Source: Paramacrobiotus metropolitanus
Taxonomy: Eukaryota > Tardigrada > Eutardigrada > Parachela > Macrobiotidae
Direction of reading: 5' to 3'
NCBI RefSeq assembly: GCF_019649055.1
Contig: NW_026570239.1
Coordinates: 1 to 64,000 of the forward strand
Length of the DNA stretch: 64,000 nucleotides
In this document: in pieces, positions 4,203 through 28,089 of the stretch
Layout of the letters: every line of letters starts with the position of its first letter
How positions within the stretch are numbered: the first letter of the stretch is position 1
Translations under genes and position numbers: made by a program
Notes under the pieces: model-generated
Database searches by the model: none
Seen by the model: the letters and a program-made list of their open reading frames with translations, nothing else
Told to the model about the DNA's origin: nothing

Positions 4203-4385
4203 GTGTAGCCGGCAGGAAGGTGGACGGGTGGATGGGGGATCTTCAATGAAGGTCATCCACCTTTCTGCAAAGGTCATCCACCTTTCTCATCCACCTTTTT
4301 GTAAAGGTCATCCACCTTTCTCATCCACCTTTCTGTAAAGGTTATCCACCTTTCTGCAAAGTCATCCACCTTTCTGTCGATTGTC
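4203..4385. repeat. Left-arm tandem array, about 21-base unit
   Basis: Imperfect copies of GTCATCCACCTTTCTGCAAAG follow the segment TGTAGCCGGCAGGAAGGTGG. The same segment and array appear in reverse orientation at 6410-6533, so the arrays are part of the element's inverted arms. Confidence 0.85.
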
Positions 4386-4900
4386 GAACATATTTATATT
4401 CTTTCAGCTTATTCATTACAACAATTTTTTAGTAATTGCTACCCTTTCTGGTAAACAACTCTCGTATCAATATGATTAAATTATTCTAGCAGTCGTACAC
4501 ACCATATCTGCCAAGCTGTTTCTGGTAGTCACTAATCTACCGTCGGCGTCCTGGTGTGTCTCTGAAGACATTTAGGTATGAAATTTGGAATACCATTTCC
4601 GGTCACAATGCGTGCGCAAACCGGCCGCAGGCCCGCCGTGGCCAAAGTGTATGGTCTGTCTTGTACCATTTGCTGAGCTGCACCTATCAGGAAAATGGCA
4701 AATGCATCTCATTGCGCATTGGCAGAACGGAGTGTAGCTCTTCGAGATGAAGGCGAAAATACAGCAAAGTCCTCGTACTGCTTGCCGTGTTCGCGCAACT
4801 TACGTATAGGAAATGTTTTTGTAAACTTTTTTTGCACAGGACTCCTTGCATCACGAACAGTTCAATTCTGGAACACGGACAGCAAGGCAAACTAAAGTGG

Positions 4901-4959
4901 GGACACTGCAGCACTTTAAGTGAGTGTTGACAACACTCACTTAAAGTGCTGCAGTGTCC
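4901..4959. repeat. Perfect palindrome with 29-base arms
   Basis: The arm beginning GGACACTGCAGCACTTTAAG (4901-4929) is exactly complementary to 4931-4959 around a single A. It lies in the left half of the 3843-6889 foldback element and is not matched in the right half. Confidence 0.9.
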
Positions 4960-5060
4960 ACCTTTCTATAAAGGTCATACACCTTTCTGCTAAGGTCACC
5001 CACCTTTCTCTAAAGGTCATCCACCTTTCTGCCGACGGTAATGCATCTTTCTCTAAAGGT
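4960..5060. repeat. Inner left-arm repeats (CCACCTTTCT type)
   Basis: A second run of the 21-base type (CACCTTTCTCTAAAGGTCAT and variants) follows the palindrome. It is mirrored in reverse orientation at 5670-5780. Confidence 0.75.
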
Positions 5061-5768
5061 TATCGTTATTTCTGTCTTGGGTTATTTACGTTCGAAGCAG
5101 TTGCATCCAGTTTTAGCTTCGACCATCTAACGGTAAATGCGCGGAAATGCTTGTAATGCAATCGTGCAACGCTTTTGTAAGCCGTTCATTTACTGATGAC
5201 AGAAGATCTGATATTCGTTAATAACGGCGCCAAATATTTTGCAAAAATGTCTGCTAATTTCGCAAGACTGAAGTGCTTGAACAGGAAGTCCAGCAGGACT
5301 TGTTCGCGGTGGAAAGCTACATGAAAGCTTTGCAAAACTGAAAAATAATGATATTCTCCTAAGTGATTTTGCTGTTCGAAGTGACTGATGATTGTCAATT
5401 CCGTTTTCTTTGTGCCTGCTCTTTCTTCTGTGACCTCTGTAACCATTTTTCTAGTATAGAAAAAATTTCGGTGCCATTTTAACGAATATGTCTGGTTCAG
5501 TGCAAAGTCTAATAATTTTTAAAAATAATCAGTATCTTGTTCTGGATTTCGTCAATTATTAAACGACTTTCAACACCGTTAGATGACTCCAACATCCATA
5601 TTTCTGCGCATGTATCGGTTGCTGAACGAAGGGAAAAGTAAATACAGTTATTTCGAACAAAAATAACCTTAGACAGAAAGGTTGATGACCTTTACAGAAA
5701 GGTGGATGACCTTTACAGAAAGGTGGATGACCTTTGCAGAAAGGTGGATGAACTTTGCAGAATGATGA

Positions 5769-6373
5769 ATGAACTCTGAAGAAAGGATTATTATTAGCAT
5801 GACAACACTCGGTGTTAGTTGTTCAACTTCCGCACATGAGTCTGCTTTGCTGTTTGTGCTCCAGAACTGCACTGTTCGTGATACTAGTAGAATCAATCCT
5901 AGTGCACAAAAAGTTTGCAAAACTGTTACTGACAAACTGTATAAGCTGCGCGAACACGGCAACCCAAACGAAGAAGTTGACGTATTTTCACCTTCAACTC
6001 GAAAAGCTGCGCTGCGTTTTGCTAGTGCTCAATTAGATGCATGTTCTTGATGGTTGGAACAGCAATAATAGCATATGGTAACTACAATACAAGTCACACC
6101 CTACAGTATGGCTACGGCTACTCCCAGCATATTATGGCGGGAACTGGTATTGATATGGCAGAATTAGTCCAAATGCACACCATGAAGCCGACTTTGGATA
6201 AATCATTAGCGGATTCCATAAACCGCTTGGCAGAAAAGGTGTATACGAGCGATAGAAAGATTAAATCATATTGGTACGAGAGTTACAAGTGTTTACCAGA
6301 TTGGGTGGAAATGAATGAAAAATCAATTGCGCTAATTAATCTTTATACAGAATATAAGAAAGCGGAAAGTTAA
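5769..6373 (+). other. Two adjoining open frames inside the right arm of the foldback element
   Basis: Frames 5769-6050 (93 aa) and 6041-6373 (110 aa) overlap by ten bases. The first includes KVCKTVTDKLYKLREHG; the second is acidic/lysine rich and ends TEYKKAES. I recognise no family. The left arm holds diverged reverse-orientation copies of both segments (about 4690-4900 and 4400-4640) with broken frames. These may be scraps of an old element-encoded protein or chance openings. Confidence 0.25.
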
Positions 6374-6409
6374 CATAGTCGACTAACAGGTGAGTTACCT
6401 TCGGCAGAA

Positions 6410-6533
6410 CGTTAATGACTTTGCAGAAAGGTGATAACCTTCAAAAAGGTGGATGAGAAAGGTGGATGACCTTTGCAGAAAGCTGGATGACCTTCATTGA
6501 AGATCCACCCGTCCACCTTCCTGCCGGCTACAC
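6410..6533. repeat. Right-arm tandem array, inverted copy of 4203-4385
   Basis: Units read CTTTGCAGAAAGGTGGATGA and end in TCCACCTTCCTGCCGGCTACA, the reverse complement of the left array and its bordering segment. Confidence 0.85.
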
Positions 6534-7811: not shown

Positions 7812-8429
7812 GAATTTAGATCTTTGCCAAAGGTACAGAAAAAAATCCAAGCCATTAGTCGGGATCCAACAGAATTGCCATCACGGTAACGGAGTTTGTT
7901 TGTTCACCAGACTAACTCCATTTAACCGTGATTGCGGTATACCTCCAAAAATGCTTATTGTATCCTTGAGTCTGCCCCGCCCATCGTCGTCCATACATCT
8001 GTAGGCGATGTAATCGTATTGACCGCCATTCGCATACAACGTTAGCGCATAAAAATTGGCATAATACGGGTGTAATTTAACAGTTGTTTGGAACTTTCAC
8101 ATCGGTCTGATAATAATAGTACTGATATTAATAGTACCGGTACTTCCAGCACATCCATAATGATTTCGGGTAGTGAAATTATTATACAGATTATGAGGAA
8201 TATAAAAGCGGCCAGATTACAACCACTTCCTGATGGTGTAGCTGTGGTACCGTATGGGTTTATAAGACACCTATGGCACACTTCGAACACGACATTTTTT
8301 TACGGCCATCCTTAGACGATGTAGTGCATCTTTCCGTTGTAGCCAATGTATTCGCAAAGACTGTTTATACAATGGCAAAAGTTTTCCACCATGCCCATAG
8401 TTACGTCCATCTTCGTTATTTTGTGCGGT

Positions 8430-8820
8430 GGCCTGTAGTAACTCGTAGTCTCGGAAGTTTGCGTAGTTTTCAGTAGTCTCGGTAGTTTGCGTAGTTTTCT
8501 GTAGTTTCCTGTAGTCTCGGTAGTTTGCGTAGTTTTCTGTACTTTCCTGTAGTCTCGGTAGTTTTCTGTAGTTTCTTGTAGTCTTGGTGGTTTGCGTAGT
8601 TCTTTCCTGTAGTCTCGGTAGTTTGTATAGTTTTCGGTAGTCTCGGCAGTTTCTATAGTTTTCGGTAATCTCGGTAGTTTGCGTAGTTTTCGGTAGTCAC
8701 CAGCCTGTCTCGGAAGCCTGTGCAGTTTTCTTTAATAACCCTAGTTCGTGTAGCCTGCGTAGTCTCCTCACTCCTGTAGTGTTTGTGGCTCCCAGTAGTG
8801 TCGGAAGTCTTTGTAGTATA
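8430..8820. repeat. Left-arm minisatellite, unit about 28 bases
   Basis: Degenerate copies of GTAGTCTCGGTAGTTTGCGT with AGTTTTCTGTAGTTTCCT variants, in the orientation opposite to the array at 8834-9560. Confidence 0.9.
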
Positions 8821-8833
8821 CGTAGGTGCAAAA

Positions 8834-9560
8834 CTACCGAGACTACAGCAAACTACCAAGACTACAGCAAACTACGCAAACTACCGAGACTACAGGAAAC
8901 AACAGAAAACTACGTAAACTACCGGGACTACAAGAAACTACAGAAGACTACGTAAACTACCGTGACTACTGAAGTACACCAAACTACGCAAACTACCGAG
9001 ACTACAGGAAACTACCGAAAACTACGTAAACTACCGGGACTACAGGAAACTACAGGAAACTGCGCAAACTACCGACACTACAGCAAACTACCGAGACTAC
9101 AGCAAACTACGCAAACTACCAAAACTACAGAAAACTACGTAAACTACCGGGACTACAGGAAACTACAGAAAACTACCAAATCTACCGGGACTACAAGAAA
9201 CTAGAGAAAACTACTTAAACTACCGGTACTACAACAAAATACAGAAAACTACGTAAACTACCGTGACTACAGCAAACTACGCAAACTACCGAAACTACAG
9301 GAAACTACAGAAAACTACTTAAACTACCGGGACTACAGGAAACTACAGAAGACTGCGTAAAGTACCGTGACTACAGCAAACTACGCAAACTACCGAAACT
9401 ACAGGAAACTACGTAAACTACCGGGACTACAGGAAACTACAGAAGACTGCGTAAAGTACCGTGACTACAGCAAACTATGCAAACTACCGAGACTACAGAG
9501 AACTACGCAAACTACCGAGACTACAAAAACCACAGGCTACTACCCGGACTAAGAGTAACT
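8834..9560. repeat. Right-arm minisatellite, inverted relative to the left arm
   Basis: Copies of AACTACGCAAACTACCGAGA and CTACAGGAAACTACAGAAA repeat about every 28 bases. This arm is nearly twice as long as the left one. The turn-around is at about 8821-8833. Confidence 0.9.
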
Positions 9561-10014
9561 ACTTTGATTTTTGGAAGTCGACAAACAGAATATGAAGTGT
9601 ACAGGTTACTACGGTGGCTACGGGACTACGACCTGGAAGTGCGGTCATAAAAAACTGTTGTGTTCGAAGTGTGCCATATCTATTATAAGAGCATAAACTC
9701 TGTTGAAAGACATGGAAAGATGGATGCATAAGATTATCAATGTAACGAAGGAATCCGTGTAAGAATTCGCACCGCAAATCATCTTGCCTACCGTAGGCTT
9801 TTCTGCATACACTTCATTGGCTACAAAAGTCGCGCAAATAATTGCCGATGCGCCGATTATGTTAACTAACGGCAAAATAAGGACATGCATCCTAAAGGAC
9901 GAAGAGGGCACGCGCCGCTTAGTCCAATACAATACCCAACTGTTGATCCCAACCGCCACGAATAATATGATAATCCCTGCAAGGATAATGCGTTATGCAG
10001 AATTCCGTTTGTGA

Positions 10015-16308: not shown

Positions 16309-16378
16309 ACACGTTCCACCTATGGCACGGTTAGTACACGATAAATTTTTCAGGACACTCTCTAACGGATGTATCCAT

Positions 16379-18330
16379 AGTATCCCACAGTATGCGTACG
16401 TATGCCACCTGTATACCGTAAGCGACCTTTATGTATCCATGCCGTCAGTTTAGGGATCCCGCTGTACCCGCTCCGTATCCCACAGTATGCGTACGTATGC
16501 AACCTGTATCCTGTAAGCGAACTTTATGTATCCCTGCCGTTCAGTCTTGAGACCCCGCTGAACCCGCTCCGTATCCCACAGTATGCGTACGGAAGCCAAA
16601 TGTATCCCGTAAGCGACAATTATGTATCCCTGCCGTTCACTTTAGAGACCCCGCTGTACCCGCTCCGTATCCCACAGTATGCGTACGTATGCAACCTGTA
16701 TCCTGTAAGCGAACTTTATGTATCCCTGCCGTTCAGTCTTGAGACCCCGCTGAACCCGCTCCGTATCCCACAGTATGCGTACGGAAGCCAAATGTATCCC
16801 GTAAGCGACAATTATGTATCCCTGCCGTTCACTTTAGAGACCCCGCTGTACCCGCTCCGTATCCCACAGTATGCGTACGTATGCCACCTGTATCCCGTAA
16901 GCGATCTTCATGTATCCCTGCCGTTCACTTTAGAGGCCCCGCTGTCCCCGCTCCGTATCCCACAGTATGCGTACGTATGCCACATGTATCCCGTAAGCGA
17001 CCTTTATGTATCACTACCGTTCAGTTTGAGACCCCGCTGTACCCGCTCCGTATCCCACAGTATGCGTACGTATGCCACATGTATCCCGTAAGCGACAATT
17101 ATGTATTCCTGCCGTTCACTTTAGAGACCCCGCTGTACCCGCTCCGTATCCCACCGTATGCGTAGTTGCGTACGTATGCCACCTGTATCCCGTAAGCGAA
17201 CTTTATGTATCCCTACCGTTCACTTTATAGAGGCCCCGCTGTCCCCGCTCCGTATCCCACAGTATGCGTACGTATGCCACCTGTATCCCGTAGGCGAACT
17301 TTATGTAACCCTACCGTTCAGTTTTGAAACCCCGCTGTACCCGCTCCGTATCCCATAGTATGCGTACCTACGCTACCTGTATCCCGTAAGCGACCTCTGT
17401 GTATCACTGCCGTTCACTTTAGAGACCCGCTGTACCCGCTCCTTATCCCACAGTATGCTTACGTATGCCACCTTTATACCGTAAGCGACCTTTATGTATC
17501 CCTACCGTTCACTTTAGAGACCCCGCTGTACCCGCTCCGTATCCCACAGTATGCGTACGTATGCCACCTGTATCCCGTAAGCGAACTTTATGTATCCCTA
17601 CCGTTCACTTTAGAGGCCCCGCTGTACCCGCTCCGTATCCCACAGTATGCGTACGTATGCCACATGTATCCCGTAAGCGACCTTTATGTATCACTACCGT
17701 TCAGTTTGAGACCCCGCTGTACCCGCTCCGTATCCCACAGTATGCGTACGTATGCCACCTGTATCCCGTAAGCGATCTTCATGTATCCCTGCCGTTCACT
17801 TTAGAGACCCCGCTGTACCCGCTCCGTATCCCACAGTATGCGTACGTATGCCATCTGTATCCCGTAAGCGAACTTTATGTATCCCTACCGTTCACTTTAG
17901 AGGCCCCGCTGTACCCGCTCCGTATCCCACAGTATGCGTACGTATGCCACCTGTATCCCGTAGGCGAACTTTATGTAACCCTACCGTTCAGTTTTGAAAC
18001 CCCGCTGTACCCGCTCCGTATCCCATAGTATGCGTACTTACGCTACCTGTATCCCGTAAGCGACCTCTGTGTATCACTGCCGTTCACTTTAGAGACCCGC
18101 TGTACCCGCTCCTTATCCCACAGTATGCTTACGTATGCCACCTTTATACCGTAAGCGACCTTTATGTATCCCTACCGTTCACTTTAGAGGCCCCGCTGTA
18201 CCCGCTCCGTAGCCCACACTATGCGTACATTTACCACTTGTATTCATAAGCGCCGTTTCTGTATCTCCACGGTTGTTCTGAAGGACCCCGCTGTGACCGT
18301 TTCTTATCTTGCAGTATGCATACGCACGCC
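16379..18330. repeat. 96-base tandem array, left arm, about 20 units
   Basis: The unit contains CGTATCCCACAGTATGCGTA, CCACCTGTATCCCGTAAGCG and CTTTATGTATCCCTGCCGTT, with period 96 measured from successive GACCCCGCTG positions (16551, 16647, 16743). Because 96 is divisible by three and two frames lack stops, long open frames of a 32-residue repeat appear; I read these as a by-product. Some units differ in sub-type and the last ones (18230-18330) are degenerate. Confidence 0.95.
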
Positions 18331-18940
18331 AGTTTCATCTGTTTTGTGGGTATACCGACCGCCAGTACCAGTGCCTCTGTTTTTTCGAGACTGTATAGTA
18401 CGGTATGCCTAAGTAGGTTAGCTGTATTCTTCAAGCATCATCATGCTGTTTTTTCTCCCCGTCTGACTGACGTCGGTGTTGTGATCGTTTAATTTAAGGT
18501 GATGTTTCTCAAAAATAATTTAAGCCACCTCTGGTTCGGGAAGTGTTTAAAACCAGGTTAAGCGTAGGAAAACTAACCCTGGAAAAAATGCTAGGAAACG
18601 AAAGAGGAAACAGAATCTCAAAAGCGCCAATTAAATACAGAAGTTGCGCCAATTGAATAAAAAAGTTAACTTATTTTGTATGCCAAAAATTGATCTGTCG
18701 GTCCGCGTTCGTGCATAAAATCATCGTATATACCATCTCGTACATATATATATACATTTTCCAAATTATATATAAACATTTTCCAAATTTCCGGTAGTGC
18801 AGTTAAAGGACGAACATTGGTCACGCCTTCAGATAACCTGAAAATGTACATATGTCCGAGAAAACTGTGAAATTTTAATTATCAAAATTTAAACACAATA
18901 TGTTTTATCTTACCGTTTAATACCGAGTACATTTTATATA

Positions 18941-19910
18941 CAGAGGGTGGGCCACCCAGGTTGCTACACTAATCAAATACATTTCTTTTAAAAAGTCAGT
19001 ATGTCAACTATAGTTTCTCTAAACCCATTTTCGGATAGCCTAGGGTATTCTGTTTCTTAAATGCCCACTCAGGGTTGGCAAAAAAAATGTTCAGAATTAG
19101 GGGACTGGAAAGACTGGAACATGGTTCCAGAAGGGTGCGTTTCAAAATCGGGGCGAGTTTCAGAAAACATTTTTACAAAATTCTGTGCACCTTCCAATAA
19201 AATGACAAAATTAATAAAATGACAAAATTTCTATAAAATGTTGCCCGTTCATGTCTGCTCCATATAAAACTTGTTTGGTCTTGATCGGAACAATGGCTGG
19301 GTTTTGGAACCCAAATCCCAAACGTCAAATCCCAAATTTCACCGGAAGTCCTCAAAATTCCTGGCATTCAAATACCAAACGTTGGTTTCAACTCGAAACT
19401 TCAGAATAGCTTTCAGAGACATGCCTTAACTCGATTTCGTTTTCGTCGGTACAGTTCATGCAGCACCGCATTTATCGCGCGAGTTTTTAACGGCTTGCAT
19501 CAACCATTTCTTAAAAACTGAATACCCGGAAGTACGAAAAATATCTGTTTTCTTTCTCTTGAAACCAGATTTTGACTGCCCGATGATATTCGCTGCTCAA
19601 CCTGTTTTTCCAAGCCTCTTCTATAGTTACAATAACAATTGGTCAAAAAAAGGTCTTTCCCTTATTCTACAATCGCTCTAAAACACAACCCGGAATTGAA
19701 ACTTCGTGATCGCAATTTTTCCCTCTGGTCGTCGTCAGAACTGGGAATCTTGGGACTCACAAATAACTGACAATCAACAACAGTTACATGTTTCACGTAC
19801 TAGAAAGGTTAAGCAACAAAACTGCATCAGCAGATTTGTGATAAGTTTGACTATGAACTGAGAATGAATTTTCTGCTGAAACTGTAACAACCTGGGTGGT
19901 TAACCCTCTG
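18941..19910. mobile_element. Tc1/mariner-like non-autonomous element
   Basis: Left end CAGAGGGTGGGCCACCCAGG and right end, reversed, CAGAGGGTTAACCACCCAGG both continue TTGYTAC. A TATATA run lies outside each end, consistent with TA insertion. Inside are short duplications (AATGACAAAATT, CCCAAATC) but no transposase. It lies within the 16317-26891 block. Confidence 0.7.
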
Positions 19911-20028
19911 TATATTTCCTTTTTTTTTCACCGCACGATTTGAAAGCGCTAATATTCGACAGTTCTGCTTATCACTTACTCTAGTTCTGAGGTAAAATGC
20001 GTTCTGCTTCAGTACTGATGTCTGCATA

Positions 20029-20530
20029 GGTAGCACGTCAATTCGCCGACCTACAATTTGCTGACCGACATGTTGCTGACTTACACAACTCGCTGACCGA
20101 CAGCTTGTTGACCGACAGTTTGCTTTTCGGCTAAGTTGTTGACGGACGTTTTTTTGAATCATTTTTGCTGACCGACAACTTGCTGTCAAATTCGGGACGT
20201 TAGTTTTTGAGTTTTCTTAACTTTTTGTTGTTTATTCTTAGATTTCTGAGTTTTCTTAACTTTTTGTTGTCTTAGATTTCTTAGGTTTCTTAGGGTTCTT
20301 AGGTTTCTTAGGTTTCTTAGTTTTCTTAGGTCTCTTAGGTTTCTTGGGTTTCTCAAGTCAGCAAATTGTCGGCAACAAGTTGTCGGTGTTCACAAAAAGT
20401 CGTTCAGCGAAATGTTGTTCAGCGATTTGTGGTTTCAACAAACTGTCGGGTCAACATTTCGTCGGTCAGCAGAAAGTCGCCAACAAGTTGTCGGTCAGCA
20501 GGATAGTCGTCAGCGAGTTGTCGGTGTGCC
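20029..20530. mobile_element. Foldback element with GCTGACCGACAACTT-type arms
   Basis: Direct repeats GTCTGCATA flank it (20020-20028, 20531-20539), giving an 8-9-base target duplication. The left arm has imperfect copies of GCTGACCGACAACTTG (20060-20200) and the right arm has the reverse complement (20357-20525). The middle (20217-20355) is a run of TTTCTTAGG-type repeats. The termini (GGTAGCACG; reversed right CGGCACACC) are only weakly alike. No coding capacity. Confidence 0.75.
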
Positions 20531-20983
20531 GTCTGCATAAATGAACTACATGCATGCCAGCAGTGGTGACTGTTCGGCGTTTAACGTTTAGGTTTCGAGG
20601 TACAGATTTGCCTAATAATCGCTTTCAGTAAATATTGTCTTTTAAAATAGGTCGGGAATGCAAACCTCAACAGTTTCCCAATTTACTTAAAACTGATCTG
20701 ATTGCATGTTTTCTCAAATTATCGAAACTTATTTCAGTGTAATTATTCCAGTAAATAGCAATCGAAGGTTGAGCGCATAATTCATGACAACTGCTACGAG
20801 TACTTTGTTTTGTCAAACCATTCTGAAATATGTTTTAGTACAGTTAGTTTTATAACCCAATAGTTATTGTAAATATGCCCGATAGTTATTCTAAATAAGT
20901 TAATGCCTATACTACTTGCCCAACTCAAGAAGGAAAGAATTCAAATACATAAGTACTACTGCACTACAAACCGCACACACTCG

Positions 20984-21115
20984 CCAGGGCCCGGTCACCG
21001 ACTCAGGGCTCCGCAAAATTTCAGTTTTTGCAGGAAGACAGAGTAACCCTTGGAAATACTTAAAAAAAATATTATGATCGGCCATGGTAAAGTGGGCGTG
21101 GCAAAACAAAATTCC
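20984..21115. repeat. Solitary end of the CCAGGGCC-terminus family
   Basis: CCAGGGCCCGGTCA, then TCCGCAAAATTTCAGTTTTT, GAAGACAGAGTA, ATCGGCCATGGTAAAGTGGG and CGTGGCAAAACA follow the same order as the left end of the 3843-6889 element. I find no partner end nearby, so this is probably a truncated copy. Confidence 0.55.
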
Positions 21116-21429
21116 TTTGGCATTAATACATACATCACTATGTATTGGGAATACTGTATCAATGTAGCGTAATATAGATATGTCAGAGGTTGGTATAAGT
21201 GATTTCAGTAGTCCGATCCTCGCTAATCGTTCCAAAAATTAGTGCTGTTAATAGTCGAGAAGAGTTAAAAGAATTGTGAAACTGGTGAGTAGTTAGAAGT
21301 TAGAACGCGCATTGTATTTGTGCCAACGTGTGTATGATACTCTACCGCGGGACGTATTCCGATTTCCCAATGCATACATACTACTCTCGTACTATATGTA
21401 ATTTTTCTCGGTGGTTTATGTAACAGCAG

Positions 21430-22197
21430 GAATTTTTCGTCATAACGTCAAAAACTGAGAACGTTAAAATACAATAACGTCAAAACGTGCAAAAGTCAAG
21501 ACGTTGAAACGTTATAAATCAGAACAGCAGAACGTCAAAACATAAAAACGTTAGAACTTCATTAAGTCTTATAAAACATGACTACAAATAGTGTTGTGCT
21601 ACTAAATAAAATTAAATAACGGCCATTTACTTAGTAAAAGTCCGCCTAATATTAAAAGTCTAGTAAATAGTAAGGTTTTGGAAACAACGTAAGTAAAAGT
21701 AAGTAAATGTGCAGACGGAATAGTAAAAAGTAAGTAAATATTAAGGTTCAGCGTTGAATAAATAAAAATCATTTACTAAATTATTTACTAAATCGTTTTA
21801 TCAACGTTACGGAAAATCGGCGTGTCCGCCGCCGCCACTCGCAGGTAAAGTGAGTGTGCGCAGTAGTCGAGCTGCCAGCCTGCCGCCCTCCGAAGCAGCA
21901 GTATTTATTTTTCAGTATGCACCTGTATAGCTCGATTAATGCATAAGAAATTTATTTGCACTATTTTCAGTAGTCTGTTGCGCTTTGAAACTAACGCAAT
22001 TCGAAACTTTCAATGCTAAATTACATTTATTTAGTAAATTTACTTTAATTTAGTAAGTAAATGTCCTTGGGAAAATTGAAATAAAAAGTAAAAGTAAGTA
22101 AAAGTCCCGAAAAATTTTGAATAGTAAGTAAAAATAAGTAAACTTTCAAAAGCCGATAGTAAAAATAAGTATATTGGCAAGGACTTTTACTACCCAA
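21430..22197. repeat. Low-complexity block: AACGTCAAAAC and AGTAAGTAAA repeats
   Basis: From 21430 to 21560 imperfect AACGTCAAAAC units recur. From 21630 to 22195 AGTAAGTAAAAGT units recur on both sides of a GC-rich middle (21820-21905). TAGTAAAAGTCC near 21632 is complementary to GGACTTTTACTA near 22182, so the second part may be bounded by short inverted repeats. Confidence 0.6.
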
Positions 22198-22443
22198 CAC
22201 TAACTACAAAAGCGTATATACGATTACAATTTTAGTCTTAAATACATTCTTTTCATACTGCTAGCCTTTTCATATTTAAAATGACCTTTCCAAATAATGC
22301 CAATACTATCTGCTTGAGTGCCGAGCGCGGATGCGCGAGGCTCCCTTGTATTCACACAATCTTACCGACCAGAACGTAGGTTTATTTTATGCGCCATTTC
22401 TATGGACTCGCCAACGCTTGGTCAGTTTTCTTTAAGGGATTTG

Positions 22444-23100
22444 GCCCGGTACATAGCAACAAGTTCGTATACATCCAGGGGAACTTTCGCTGTTGCGCGC
22501 TCCCAAACACTTTTTTGCATTGCTTTATGGCATTTTGTAGCCAGACGAATTGTATACCTAGGTGAGAAAACCGTTTTGCGCGCGGAACATCCGGTTGTGA
22601 AGTTATGAGGGCATCAAAATCCCAAGAAGTTTAAATGCATTCAGGTGTACCAAAAGTCTCATTATGGACCGCTCCCTTTCAAATTTTGCGCGTAAATGCA
22701 CGTAACCATGAAGATCGTTTTGACCCGGATCCAGACTTCTACGATTTTTTTCAAATGAATTTTAAAATTTTTGAAATTCATTTTAAAATTTGAAAACCAT
22801 GCTAGAACAGTGGATCCGTGTCAAAACGATCTTCATGGTTATGTGCATTTACGCGCAAAATTTGAAAGGGAGCGGTCCATAATGAGACTTTTGGTACACC
22901 TGAATGCATTTAAACTTTTTGGAATTTTTGTTACCCTCATAGCTCGGCAACCGGATGTTGCGCGCGAAAACGGATTTCACGCCTATGTACACCAATCATT
23001 TGGCCACACAATGTCAAAAAGCAACCGAAAAAAGTGTTTGAAAGTGCGCGAAAGCGAATATTCCCGTCAATGTACACGATTTTAGCGCTATGTACCGGGC
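22444..23100. mobile_element. Palindromic element, 657 bases, arms about 320 bases
   Basis: GCCCGGTACATAGC at the left is matched by GCTATGTACCGGGC at the right, with TTG outside both ends (22441-22443, 23101-23103). Moving inward, arms pair through AACATCCGGTTG, TTAAATGCATTCAGGTGTAC, CATTATGGACCGCTCCCTTT and AACCATGAAGATCGTTTTGA. The inner arms are almost identical and the outer parts more diverged. The open frame 22771-23085 is a by-product. Three-base duplications would fit a PIF/Harbinger- or CACTA-like enzyme; that is inference. Confidence 0.8.
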
Positions 23101-23103
23101 TTG

Positions 23104-25524
23104 GTCTTGAAAAATTTCATATTTTCCACAGATTTGTAACTTGATTTTTATTTGTTTTTATTAAATAAGTTGGCAGAAGACAATATCACCAGGCCAAGGA
23201 ATCGTAGAGAGTACTACTACCACTTAAAATGCATACCGCCCAGTACACAGAGTGATTAACTTAATGAATACAAGTATACAACCAAGCAGAATATTATTTT
23301 ATATTAGGGATACATACTACATAGATACCGGCTTTCATGGCACAGTTATACCGTACGTTATACGAATTACGAAATCACTGTATTTAGTACGAGATCTATA
23401 CTACGCGCGGCGCCCAATAGTTTTGAGATCTCATAAACCAAATCAATTTTTTAAAAACTGACGCTACCAATAGATTGGCCTCAATCCATAACTGGGCTCA
23501 CGTGATTTTGGTTTTTAATTCATTTGGCCAGAATCGTGACGGCCGCAAACGATCCAACCCACTTTGAAGGTGACTTTGAAACTTTTGCCTAGAAGCAGTA
23601 CTTAACAAATGATTTGCACAAATAGTATGCAAGAAATAAATTATAGTTACTCTTTTCCGGCAATGAGTTAAGTAATTGTAATTATTTTCGCGCCACACCA
23701 AGCATAAACTCATCCCAAGGTTCTGACCACACTGTGCGTTAGAATTGCAGTTCTACACGATTATCGTACTTAAACAACGTTCAACAAAGAAATGGTTTTC
23801 TGGTACATGTTCTCACTTTACCGTCTATCCTCGTATTTCATCAAACGTTCGAAGTAAGCTGAACTGAGCGAGTAAAGGCGGCCCCATAGTCAACCGTTTT
23901 CTGAGACGGAGAAAAGGTTTCTCGACGGGACGGTATTGACGGAGTTTCCGTGGTCACGGATTTTCCACGACACGGTCACTCCGACTTACCGTTCGCGCAG
24001 GGCTCTAGTTCGAGTCCCGTCATCGGCAGATTTTTATTTCTTCAGTATCTTCAGTAAATTCAGAAATTCATATTTAAATTTCATTAATAAAATCAGCAGC
24101 GTTCTCCTGTCGTAGGCGTCCGCCCTTCTAAGAATATCTCAATATATAATAATCGCGTCCGCCCTTCTAAGAATATCTCAATATATAATAATCGCGTAAT
24201 CATTGTTGTGTTTGTCAGCTCGACCCACTGATCCAAACTTCCGCGATAGCCCTTAAACTGTAGATTAGCCATCACAAATCAGTTTTTACAGATAAAGATA
24301 GGTTCGAAAGGAAAATTTCAAAACATTAGCATGCAAAGTCTATAGGGAACGCTAAGAAACTCACCACTGCTGAACCGACCAACCCATCATTTTCTCAACA
24401 GCCGACAGCCCAACAGGCTTTTTTGACAGTTTCGTTGCAGCTGGATGGAACTTTACGTTCCATAACAAATATTATTCCATCGACTTCATGTATATTTCTC
24501 ATCTAAATTTAGTTTTGAAAAGGGAAATAAAGCGATAGAAAGGTGACGAAATGGCAGCGCTGATTCTGCGACTGTCGGATGGTTCTAAAGTCTGACTTTA
24601 AGAACGTACCTGCGGCACGAGCGGAGTTCATGGAGCACGAAGCAAAGAAAAAATTCGCGTAACAGTTCACGCTTTTGAAAAAAAGTTAAAAGGAAAGAAG
24701 GAAACACAAGAAACTACTTCTGTTCTTATTTAATGAAAAATGTTTGGATGTGTTCTGTGGTCAAAGCAGTAGTAAAAAGGAGATGCGATAGCAAGCATTT
24801 GTTAATCTGATTGTTAATCTGGCATACAAAGGGCACCTGCCCAGCACCATTGTTGTTAGTATAAAAACTGAGATTTCAAGAACAAGTAAATTGTTATCGC
24901 ATAGTCTAAGACTCTACAGCCAAAAAAGAAGAAATGAGAGCAACTTCTAATAAATTACGGAGTCCCTATGCAGCAGGTGCACGCAATTTAAATGACTGGA
25001 TAACTGATCTGGAAAGGAAACCAACGAAAAGATTTCTCCGCTCTTCAGCGAAAAGAATTTCGCGTTTCAGGTTTAAGGGAATCTCGGCTTTCAGTTAATG
25101 CGACAGGCAAATTTTTCAGGAGACATTATCGTCATCTGTGGACTGTGGTATATTGTAGAATTTTCGGCTTCGTCCATAAAACCTAAAATTTACCCGCAGA
25201 CGGCATCCATGAGTTTCAATTTTTGCACTAGGTTATACATAATTCGCCCATCGCATTAATTATGCCGCGCAATTTGCGCAGGGTCGGCTAGTAAAATTAT
25301 AGAATCATACCATAGGATTGAGTTACGCCACAAAGGCGGCATTTAAATGTGCAACAGGAAAACCAGCAATCTGAATACCAAATAAACCTGGACCACGCCA
25401 GCTTGCTATGGAATACATAGTCATTACCGAGGCAAAGTTTAGCCGGGAATTAGGATGCAGGAAAGATACCAGGAAACACCTGAAACCCGTATGCACACTG
25501 TGTGACAATGAGTGGGTACAGCGG
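23104..25524. other. Interior of the giant element, nothing coding recognised
   Basis: Apart from the 39-base duplication at 24116, I find only short motif-free frames. It could hold decayed sequence of the original element. Confidence 0.35.
24116..24197. repeat. Exact tandem duplication of 39 bases
   Basis: Two identical copies beginning GCGTCCGCCCTTCTAAGAAT (24116-24154, 24155-24193), followed by a partial GCGT. Confidence 0.9.
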
Positions 25525-26833
25525 GCCCTTTAAACGAACGGCCGGGATACTTAAAAGTCGCTAAAGGGATACATGGGGCATACGTAAGCATACTGTGGGA
25601 TACGGAGCGGGTACAGCGGGGTCTCTAAAGTGAACGGCAGGGATACATAATGGTCGCTTACCGGATACAGGTAGCATACGTACGCATACTGTGGGATACG
25701 GAGCGGGTACAGCGGGGTCTCTAAAGCGAACGGCAGGGATACATAATGGTCGCTTACGGGATACAGGTGGCATACGCACGCATACTGTGAGATACGGAGC
25801 GGGTACAGCGGGGTCTCTAAAGTGAACGGCAGGGATACATGAAGATCGCTTACGGGATACAGGTGGCATACGTACGCATACTGTGGGATACGGAGCGGGT
25901 ACAGCGGGGTCTCTAAAGTGAACGGCAGGGATACATAATGGTCGCTTACCGTATACAAGTAGCATACGTACAATGTAGGACGAAATGGTCGCATAGCCCC
26001 ATACCCAGCATTCTGTACGCAAGCGGTGCAGTGCACTTGTACGAAACGGATATTTTGAACTCAGTGGTACAGTGCACTGCGCTGCATTCGTACTGAATGT
26101 AAAGATGTTGGGTATGCGACCATTTCGTCCTAAGCTGTACGCATACTGTGGGATACGGAGCGGGTACAGCGGAGTCTCTAAAGTGAACGGCAGGGATACA
26201 TGAAGATCGCTTACGGGATACAGGTGGCATACGTACGCATACTGTGAGATACGGAGCGGGTACAGCGGGGTCTCTAAAGTGAACGGCAGGGATACATAAT
26301 GGTCGCTTACCGGATACAGGTAGCATACGTACGCATACTGTGGGATACGGAGCGGGTACAGCGGGGTCTCTAAAGTGAACGGCAGGGATACATGAAGATC
26401 GCTTACGGGATACAGGTGGCATACGTACGCATACTGTGAGATACGGAGCGGGTACAGCGGGGTCTCTAAAGTGAACGGCAGGGATACATAATGGTCGCTT
26501 ACCGGATACAGGTAGCATACGTACGCATACTGTGGGATACGGAGCGGGTACAGCGGGGTCTCAAAACTGAACGGTAGGGATACATATAGGTCGCTTACGG
26601 GATACAGGTGGCATACGTACGCATACTGTGGGATACGGAGCGGGTACAGCGGGATCCCTTAACTGAACGGCATGGATACATAACGGTCACTTACGGGATA
26701 CAGGTGGCATACGTACGCATACTGTGGGATACGGAGCGGGTACAGCGGGGTCTCTAAAGTGAACGGCAGGGATACATAATGGTCGCTTTCGGGATACAGG
26801 TAGCATACGTACGCATACGGTGGGATACTAGGG
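25525..26833. repeat. 96-base tandem array, right arm, inverted
   Basis: Same 96-base unit as 16379-18330 but reversed: units read TACGCATACTGTGGGATACG and AGTGAACGGCAGGGATACAT. It is interrupted by a 167-base MITE at 25971-26137. Confidence 0.95.
25971..26137. mobile_element. MITE inserted in the 96-base array, TA target
   Basis: Ends CAATGTAGGACGAAATGG and, reversed, CAGCTTAGGACGAAATGG are flanked by TA (25969-25970, 26138-26139). Removing the element and one TA restores the array sequence ATACGTACGCATAC, so target and boundaries are certain. It belongs to the same family as 60729-60894 (shared ends and GTGCACTTGTACGA core, inverted). Confidence 0.9.
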
Positions 26834-27075
26834 ATACATCCGTTAGAAAGTGTCCTGAAAAATTCATCGTGTACTATTCTGTCCATATCTAACACGTTCA
26901 GGACGATTAAAAAGCAGAAAAGCACCGACATTCCACTGGAATTTTATGTACGGTATTCACACTGACATTGCATTTAAGTACATTTGCATACAACACTTTC
27001 ATGAGGTTCACTGTTTGTTGTGGCTACGGTGTCTTAACCATTTAAAATATATACGAGTATATTCACAGCCCCGCA

Positions 27076-28089
27076 ATGGACAATATTACGTTCAACGAGT
27101 CCATCGTGGGTGTGCCTAAGGATGCAGCGCAAACACTTTCGCCGAGAGCGGTCGTCAGGTACGTGTTTCTGGCATGGGCCATCGTGTTTATCCTGACGGT
27201 CAGTATAAATGGCTTGATTTTTTATTTTGTTAAGCGGAGAGTACCCAATTCCTCTTTCAAGACTCATGTTTTAATTTTATTAACAACCAATATAATCGGC
27301 GCTACTTTCCTTGTTTCCGCCTATTACATTGCCAATGAGGCATACGCCCCCAAACCCAGTGTGACAAAGATCTTCTGTGGAGCGGCCCTCTATGGAGAAT
27401 TCATCGTGACCTCATTGATCTTGTGGATGCATTGTGCTATGTCATTCAACAGAGTGTGCGCCATTGTCAGTCCCATAAAATACAGGAATTTCTACACCAG
27501 CAGAATAGCAGTGTACATTGCCGCTTTTTTATTCACTGTTATGAATATAATACAGTTACCACAAATAGTGAGAGATGTTTCGAACCTGCCAGGGTCAGCA
27601 ACACAATGCGAGGATTCCCAGCACCTGACCGATTACGCCAAGAATATGCCCATGTTCACGCACATCACACCGTTGGTCTTAAACGGTGCTGCATATGTTT
27701 GCGTAGCCTTTAGCCTGTACCGCCGACGACGATTGACGGGAATATCACACGGCGATGATAAGCAATTTTTGGCATATAGTGTGGTGACGATAACGGAGAT
27801 TATCTGCTGGATTCCGTCAAAGGTCAATTTCATCTTATTAGCACATTATTTTGGTTATCATAACGAAGCACTTATGACAATTGGGGGGTGGCTATATTTC
27901 GTTCCGATGATCGTTCAGCCGCTATCCCTCTGCCTTACCATGCAGCATTTACGTATGGTTTGCAAAGACGCGTGCACCTCCCTAGGACAACTTTGCCGAA
28001 GATGCCGATCGAAAAGTAACGTTGCTCCGCAAATGGAGCTCCGCCCAGTGGATACCGTTGGCTTATCAAACGCAAGGGCTCCCGCCTAA
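27076..28089 (+). CDS. Intact rhodopsin-type (class A) G-protein-coupled receptor, 337 aa
   Basis: A single exon encodes a seven-pass plasma-membrane receptor. The N-terminus has two N-glycosylation sequons (NIT, NES). TM1 is about 27-51 with N45; TM2 about 64-86; C101 at the top of TM3 is the expected disulfide partner of the cysteine near 178 in loop 2. The TM3 end reads MSFNRVCAIV, so Asn replaces the Asp of DRY. TM4 is about 144-163 and TM5 about 190-215. TM6 has CWIPSKVNF, the usual CWxP. TM7 has VQPLSLC in place of NPxxY. The C-tail is short and cysteine/arginine rich. Ligand unknown. Two pseudogenes of the same family (788-1782, 7812-10014) show a local, decaying family. The giant foldback element ends just upstream, so its promoter may lie in or next to mobile DNA. 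Confidence 0.9.
   Translation: MDNITFNESIVGVPKDAAQTLSPRAVVRYVFLAWAIVFILTVSINGLIFYFVKRRVPNSSFKTHVLILLTTNIIGATFLVSAYYIANEAYAPKPSVTKIFCGAALYGEFIVTSLILWMHCAMSFNRVCAIVSPIKYRNFYTSRIAVYIAAFLFTVMNIIQLPQIVRDVSNLPGSATQCEDSQHLTDYAKNMPMFTHITPLVLNGAAYVCVAFSLYRRRRLTGISHGDDKQFLAYSVVTITEIICWIPSKVNFILLAHYFGYHNEALMTIGGWLYFVPMIVQPLSLCLTMQHLRMVCKDACTSLGQLCRRCRSKSNVAPQMELRPVDTVGLSNARAPA

Follow-up and report, generated by a model that had tools for sequence, protein, structure and literature searches.

A foldback transposon family in Paramacrobiotus metropolitanus with related ends and subtype-specific arms built on an inward GTA motif

The tardigrade Paramacrobiotus metropolitanus carries a family of foldback-type transposons whose ends are related over about 50 bp and whose arms, although made of different repeat units in different subtypes, consist mainly of inward GTA[GT][CT]C sites spaced about 10 bp apart. 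It is probably a non-autonomous cut-and-paste foldback family that is moved in trans, the arms being amplified arrays of putative secondary transposase-binding sites. Mobilization in trans and binding to the array are proposals, since the family transposase was not found. The starting point was the window, a 64,000-nucleotide stretch of contig NW_026570239.1, in which the initial annotation had described two elements with the same termini and unrelated arms; the shared termini are confirmed, and the interpretation is partly supported.

The two elements are W1 (8268-9682, 1415 bp) and W2 (16317-26891, 10,575 bp). Both have asymmetric ends, left CACCTATGG and right TAGATATGG, and thus both start with CACCTATGG and have CCATATCTA as their final bases. 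A perfect 8-bp target-site duplication flanks each element, TTATAAGA at 8260-8267 and 9683-9690 for W1 and ACACGTTC at 16309-16316 and 26892-26899 for W2, and the earlier report of shared ends with perfect duplications on a 1.4-kb and a 10.6-kb element was verified in both respects. The 18-mer ATGGCACACTTCGAACAC has two matches in the window, both exact with up to three mismatches permitted (chance mean 0.07). W1 is composed of a left terminus (8268-8327, plus strand, CACCTATGGCACACTTCGAACAC...), a left arm array (8445-8698, plus strand) in which inward 9-10-bp monomers headed by GTAGTC or GTAGTT form a 28-bp higher-order repeat, a right arm array (8831-9562) with the same monomers on the minus strand, and a right terminus (9623-9682, minus strand) that reads inward, as the reverse complement, TAGATATGGCACACTTCGAACAC... 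W2 has a left terminus (16317-16379, plus strand, CACCTATGGCACGGTTAGTACACG...), a left arm (16380-18265, plus strand) of 96-bp higher-order repeats with nine 10-11-bp sub-units each, six of them GTA-headed, an interior (18266-25487), a minus-strand right arm with an inner part (25488-25971) and an outer part (26137-26828) of the 96-bp array, and a right terminus (26829-26891, minus strand) with the inward reading TAGATATGGACAGAATAGTACACG...

Several other features lie in or beside these elements. At 25972-26136 the right arm array of W2 is broken by a short palindromic insertion, GGACGAAATGGTCGCATA... followed by its inverse. The stretch 20039-20525 in the W2 interior is probably the remnant of an arm of another foldback type, the Mutator-like (MULE) foldback L051, on the basis of GCTGACCGA at 20060, 20092 and 20167 and TCGGTCAGC at 20462 and 20491. 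A second, unrelated foldback element at 4204-6532 has perfect 25-bp inverted ends TGTAGCCGGCAGGAAGGTGGACGGG and 21-bp repeat arrays holding AAAGGTGGATGA, and the only duplication seen around it is the 4-bp CACG. Beside the right flank of W2, at 27046-28086, there is an uninterrupted frame of 347 amino acids with a rhodopsin-type receptor domain (PF00001, E 8.7e-11).

The genome assembly, 169.8 Mb in 533 contigs, was searched for the ends, with reversed patterns as controls. The right-end pattern TAGATATGGNNNNNNTMGWAC has 66 matches versus 0 for its control, and the joint left/right pattern has 143 versus 13. The 12-mer CACCTATGGCAC occurs 63 times versus 21 for its control, and TAGATATGGCAC 52 times versus 10. 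At least 171 distinct ends were collected from the matches listed, a collection that is partial because the places of the joint pattern are only partly listed, and that includes some chance 12-mers. Among the ends listed, left-right combinations less than 25 kb apart number 29 in the orientation of a single element and 4 otherwise. The asymmetry of the ends is part of the pairing rule, and the evidence lies in independent left and right searches pairing often in the right orientation. One of the 29 combinations, the left end of W1 with the right end of W2, was dropped, leaving 28 paired copies that range from 365 bp (L034) to 21,669 bp (C58); L002, which has no pair, was also dropped.

An exact 8-bp duplication is flush with the ends in 11 of the 28 pairs, or in 13 when an offset of 1 bp is allowed. 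Seven or more of the eight bases agree, flush, in 14 pairs, and mismatched flank pairings used as a control reach this level in 0 of 756 cases. No clean 8-bp duplication is present in 15 pairs. The final five bases of the right end, ATCTA, stand directly before CACCTATGG in L005, L011, L022 and L025, as well as at the single end L042; among paired copies this is four of the 15 without a clean duplication versus none of the 13 with one. In L013, CTATAAAA flanks both sides, with an extra CACTA on the left. The family shows both features examined for the foldback class, namely long inverted arms of tandem repeats, which are present in W1, W2 and most copies, and a target-site duplication of 8 bp (13 of 28 pairs, including the 1-bp offset). 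Motif sites occur without a listed tandem array in L021-L025 and L027 (listing above score 150) and in L034 (listing above score 200).

The common ends are real, and the related stretch is about 50 bp long rather than the 12 bases initially noted; the left and right consensus sequences are identical at 35 of 50 positions. The copies were sorted into six subtypes by their arm repeats, and the sorting was set against a tree built from the terminal 60 bp. The W1 type (W1, L001, L004, L005, L012) has GTAGTTTGC-like units, and the W2 type (W2, C1a, C1b, C32, C58, C262) has 96-bp units. The L009 type (L009, L014, L078, C96) has 9-10-bp GTAGTC units, L010 and L011 form a type of their own, and GTATTC characterizes the L003 type (L003, L024, L025, L026). 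The L021 type (L021, L022, L023, L034, L027) has GTATCC motifs and no listed tandem array. The tree groups the ends by arm subtype with uneven support (0 to 1.0). In it the L021 type does not form a single clade, its left ends lying next to the W2 type. By our assignment, arm type matches end type in 26 of the 28 copies. Only in L006 and L013 do the left and right ends clearly belong to different subtypes. Both lack a flush duplication, as would be expected of recombinants, and look like recombinants between subtypes.

The arms were initially said to share nothing obvious, which does not hold: in all six subtypes they consist mainly of inward GTA[GT][CT]C sites about 9.4-10.6 bp apart. Within 700 bp inward from the end, 56 arms hold a mean of 20.2 inward sites versus 2.3 outward sites per 700 bp, counts that describe the pattern rather than test it because the hexamer was picked post hoc and the copies are related. 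Fifty control windows from 28000-63000 have means of 0.36 and 0.46 and a maximum of 3. Inward sites outnumber outward sites in 53 of the 56 arms; L021, in both of its arms (1/1 and 6/7 inward/outward), and L027, in its right arm (3/3), depart from this. Outward sites are not rare within the arms of the L003 and L021 types. Eight single-end loci (L035-L042), kept out of these counts, have more inward than outward sites within 600 bp in six cases, and not in C99 (5/6) and C142 (2/4). When strand-biased pentamers are listed independently of the motif, the top entry in each of the six subtypes is GTAGT, GTATC or GTATT or, for the W2 type, the shifted TATCC.

Both the spacing of the sites and the place where they begin are shared. 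The best period is 9.5 bp in the W1 type, 10.6 in the W2 type, 9.4 in the L009 type, 9.6 in the L010 type, 10.6 in the L003 type and 10.1 in the L021 type (mixed copies L006 and L013 left out, arms with fewer than four sites dropped). This spacing exceeds random placement in all six subtypes, and none of 1000 random or jittered sets matches the observed value. Any tandem array is periodic, so periodicity by itself is no proof of selection. Periods of 9.4-9.6 bp, as in the W1, L009 and L010 types, drift around the B-DNA helix, so phasing on one face is not general. Counting from the terminus, 51 of the 56 ends have a GTA at 52-56 bp, and 27 of 350 control 5-bp bins contain a GTA start. Further GTAs follow at 61-66 bp (44 of the 56 ends), 70-77 bp (44) and 79-87 bp (46), and 38 ends have one at 17-19 bp. 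The register is kept in L022-L024 and L034, and also in most copies without an array listed by TRF. The 28-bp repeat of W1 and the 96-bp repeat of W2 are different higher-order repeats of GTA[GT][CT]C-type monomers; the subtype statistics used for the sub-units of the W2 repeat left out L006, L013 and arms with fewer than five sites. Because the motif is shared and end and arm subtypes largely coincide, the arms appear to descend from a single ancestral array by amplification of different higher-order units.

These results bear directly on the modular reading of the initial annotation, in which the termini act as the mobile module, with unrelated satellite repeats being captured, exchanged or amplified inside it. 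That reading draws on the variation in unit length and sequence by subtype (28, 19 and 96 bp, plus 95-96 bp of different sequence) and on L006 and L013, which combine the ends of two subtypes. We consider it quite improbable: motif, orientation, spacing and start distance are common to all subtypes, end and arm subtypes agree in nearly every copy by our assignment, and the two mixed copies, lacking a flush duplication, resemble recombinants. What stands is one foldback family with subtype-specific repeat units and variable interiors; the acquisition of unrelated arms between mobile termini is not supported. It is also rather unlikely that the arrays serve another role, such as nucleosome positioning, hairpin extrusion or recombination, with the transposase binding the terminal ~50 bp only. 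The terminal 50 bp are conserved independently and a spacing of about 10 bp would suit DNA bending too, but the mainly inward orientation and the fixed start are more readily explained by end recognition than by bending or hairpins.

Interiors were compared on sequences without arms. Those of W2, C1a, C32, C1b, C58 and C262 have mostly colinear segments in common, about 77-98% identical and with some pieces inverted. Matches between subtypes are short, such as the 276 bp (76%) that C1b has in common with L021 or the 219 bp (74-75%) that link C1a to L009/L014. Extension of the common termini into common interiors would speak against a modular family, and it is found within a subtype (the W2 type), with only short stretches shared between subtypes. 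W2, L027, the L009 interior, the right part of C1b and the right half of C262 were scanned against Pfam in six frames; the interiors of other copies were covered by lists of open reading frames at most. No Pfam family was found in the W2 interior (six frames, E 0.05), the right part of C1b or the L009 interior, and the one match in L027, PF06043 (E 0.0089), is far below its cut-off. The C262 copy (L032, 19.3 kb) has Sina_ZnF (E 3.8e-11) and Sina_RING (E 2.8e-4, below cut-off) in different frames, and these Sina-type RING and zinc-finger parts are host-gene-like cargo. A 45-bp satellite (TGCGGTACCCGCCTTTTTGAGCC...) occupies up to 3.2 kb of the interiors of C1a (L015-L016) and C32 (L020).

Three interior genes were considered as the family enzyme and set aside. 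The hAT in the 21.7-kb C58 copy is nested, with its own ends TAGAGCCCTGCAC (13/13) and the duplication ACGTACGT, which is palindromic and may therefore belong to the inverted ends of the hAT instead. The piggyBac frame in C1a and C32 is nested between TTAAs with loosely matching ends, as judged by comparison with its relatives and from the printed sequence; an initial scan around it for TTAA-flanked ends found none. The tyrosine-recombinase-like frame in L009 and L014 is taken as nested because its Pfam match is weak (E 0.039 and 0.11) and copies are dispersed in the genome, with at least 114 matches among the 150 of 247 candidates scored. Another such match (C192) is located some 5 kb inward of a right end, approximately the chance level by our estimate. 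In the interiors scanned, genes are thus taken as cargo or nested elements.

The genome contains at least 18 P-type (PF21787), 53 hAT (PF05699), 39 MULE (PF10551), 3 KDZ, 10 Merlin-domain (PF12762) and 13 piggyBac matches. Gene matches arise exon by exon, the candidate lists are lower bounds, some stretches read as N and the list of ends is partial, so the following negative counts do not prove that a transposase is absent. The 25 kb inward of each of the 171 ends listed contain none of the 39 MULE and none of the 18 P-type matches. Among the 53 hAT matches the only one inside a pair is the nested C58 hAT. None of the three KDZ matches is near the ends listed, and one of the ten Merlin-domain matches is, 18 kb from an unpaired left end. 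To our knowledge, Sola1 and Novosib have no Pfam model. The duplications of the family, 8 bp and varied in sequence, are not the TTAA of piggyBac. Within 25 kb inward of the ends listed there are only the C58 hAT, the two nested piggyBacs, a hAT on C59 and the Merlin domain on C94. The hAT at C59:622251 lies 6 kb from a right end whose best left end gives an element of about 720 bp, which places the hAT probably outside it; that candidate left end and its duplication have two mismatches each. The C94 Merlin domain has no duplicated partner end in 3.4 kb and, in a strict test, no ends of its own. A genome-wide collection of loci bounded by the common ends, a clustering of their arms and a search for a transposase-coding copy had been proposed at the outset; the collection yielded the 28 pairs among the ends listed, with arm type following end type in 26 of them by our assignment and no transposase of the family's own in the interiors scanned. 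Because the decisive tests for MULE, P and hAT have failed so far, the family is assigned only to the foldback type.

By analogy, MULE (Mutator) is our first guess for the transposase class, put at slightly under an even chance, and follows from the resemblance to Tm1 and from the other MULEs of this genome that have tandem foldback arms. The same odds are given to the more specific proposal that the enzyme is a Phantom-type MULE and the family a Mutator/foldback family like Tm1, with its autonomous copy lost or distant. In the accessible part of its description, Tm1 of Meloidogyne, a Mutator/foldback family, has asymmetric short outer motifs, arms of variable short tandem repeats whose consensus CGATTCAGTATCCGC contains GTATCC, MITE-like and large copies, and 8-10-bp duplications, all of which recall the tardigrade family (PMC3169594). 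Tm1 differs in its mostly 9-bp duplications, its 13-15-bp repeat, its other end sequences and in having one class with a gene for a Phantom MULE transposase, whereas none was found in the tardigrade family (PMC3169594). MULE duplications measure 8-11 bp, and those of Spectre 8 bp, in the text available (PMC6446971), a range that includes the 8 bp seen here. The MULE loci L045, L046, L051 and L052 have inverted tandem-repeat arms of at least three different sequences, and several foldback families appear to coexist in the genome. L051, a MULE foldback, resembles the family in its inverted tandem-repeat arms and unequal outer ends; it differs in a 9-bp duplication GAGCTCGCT, 15-bp repeats containing GCTGACCGA, a MULE-domain match between the arms and the lack of a GTA[GT][CT]C array. 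Against a MULE stand the lack of MULE matches in the 25 kb inward of the ends listed, the clean duplications of 8 rather than 9 bp, and the borders of the MULE loci themselves. All 10 loci fetched from the 39 matches lack inward GTA[GT][CT]C arrays and were rejected as autonomous copies; the MULE-type arms of L045 and L046 have four to five outward sites per 500 bp.

By comparison, a transposase of the P superfamily (Galileo-like) or of the hAT superfamily is an unlikely mover. Duplications of 8 bp are compatible with the P superfamily and hAT alike. The ends of hAT elements typically have A at position 2 and G at position 5, and the family ends, with T at 5, are unlike this start. The genome matches also argue against it, as no P-type match is near the ends listed and the only hATs there are the nested C58 copy and the C59 copy that is probably outside its element. 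In its favor, Galileo of Drosophila belongs to the P superfamily and has foldback arms, and in the available text its THAP domain is described, with biochemical support, as binding sites within the tandem repeats of the terminal inverted repeats (PMC3688188). Further likenesses in those sources are tandem-repeat foldback arms, interspecies conservation confined to about 40 terminal bp in Galileo, secondary transposase sites in the repeats (putative here) and chimeric copies without matching duplications (PMC3688188, PMC3573991). Galileo differs in its 7-bp duplications and its P-type transposase, for which there is no match between the ends here (PMC3688188, PMC3573991).

Other foldback elements share part of this organization. 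Tetris and DAIBAM of Drosophila virilis, as far as the accessible text goes, are a non-autonomous foldback and a MITE sharing only the terminal part, with 8-10-bp duplications and a transposase that was not found; they differ in repeats of about 220 bp, and no short motif array is described there (PMC4079207). Openly readable literature, in the main, on foldbacks, Phantom, Rehavkus and tardigrades, Repbase aside, contained no description that we recognized as this family; the initial annotation likewise knew of none with such ends. Papers containing one of the end 12-mers concern other subjects in the parts available. The accessible part of a tardigrade repeat curation lists MULE, hAT, P and others, and the family is not recognizable there (PMC11071193). 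Among classical foldback elements, Drosophila FB/NOF and sea urchin TU have short tandem-repeat arms, with repeats of 10, 20 and 31 bp in FB and 15 bp in TU. TU makes 8-bp duplications, and both FB/NOF and TU have large variable interiors. Their ends are not known to resemble those of the tardigrade family.

For the preferred reading, a non-autonomous foldback family mobilized in trans, the following sequence of events may be proposed. A transposase made elsewhere would recognize the 50-bp ends and cut at CACC/TAGA with an 8-bp stagger; the enzyme is postulated and the duplications are observed. The GTA array would provide secondary transposase sites in one main direction, raising specificity, and might keep both ends together in short and very long copies alike. 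Judging from the repeat units, unequal exchange would amplify a separate higher-order unit in each subtype while motif, orientation and spacing are kept, and such lineage-specific exchange would produce arms that seem unrelated. Interiors contain other transposons and, in the C262 copy, sequence that resembles a host gene. More tentatively, and with distinctly less confidence than the family assignment itself, the arms may be a selected, sequence-degenerate binding track, on which the transposase or a partner would assemble by following a ladder of oriented GTA[GT][CT]C sites whose anchor lies some 54 bp from each end. As only motif, direction and spacing would be kept, the rest of the repeat would drift, and new satellites (28, 19 and 96 bp) would arise from one array.

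The role of the long repeat arms of foldback transposons is still uncertain, and in the literature as far as it was accessible direct binding data were met only for Galileo. Six unlike arm types with one motif, one main orientation and one start provide a concrete binding-site hypothesis together with natural variants. If the binding-track reading is true, identical ends could move cargo of 0.4 kb and of 22 kb, and transposon ends would be a possible route by which new satellite repeats are generated.
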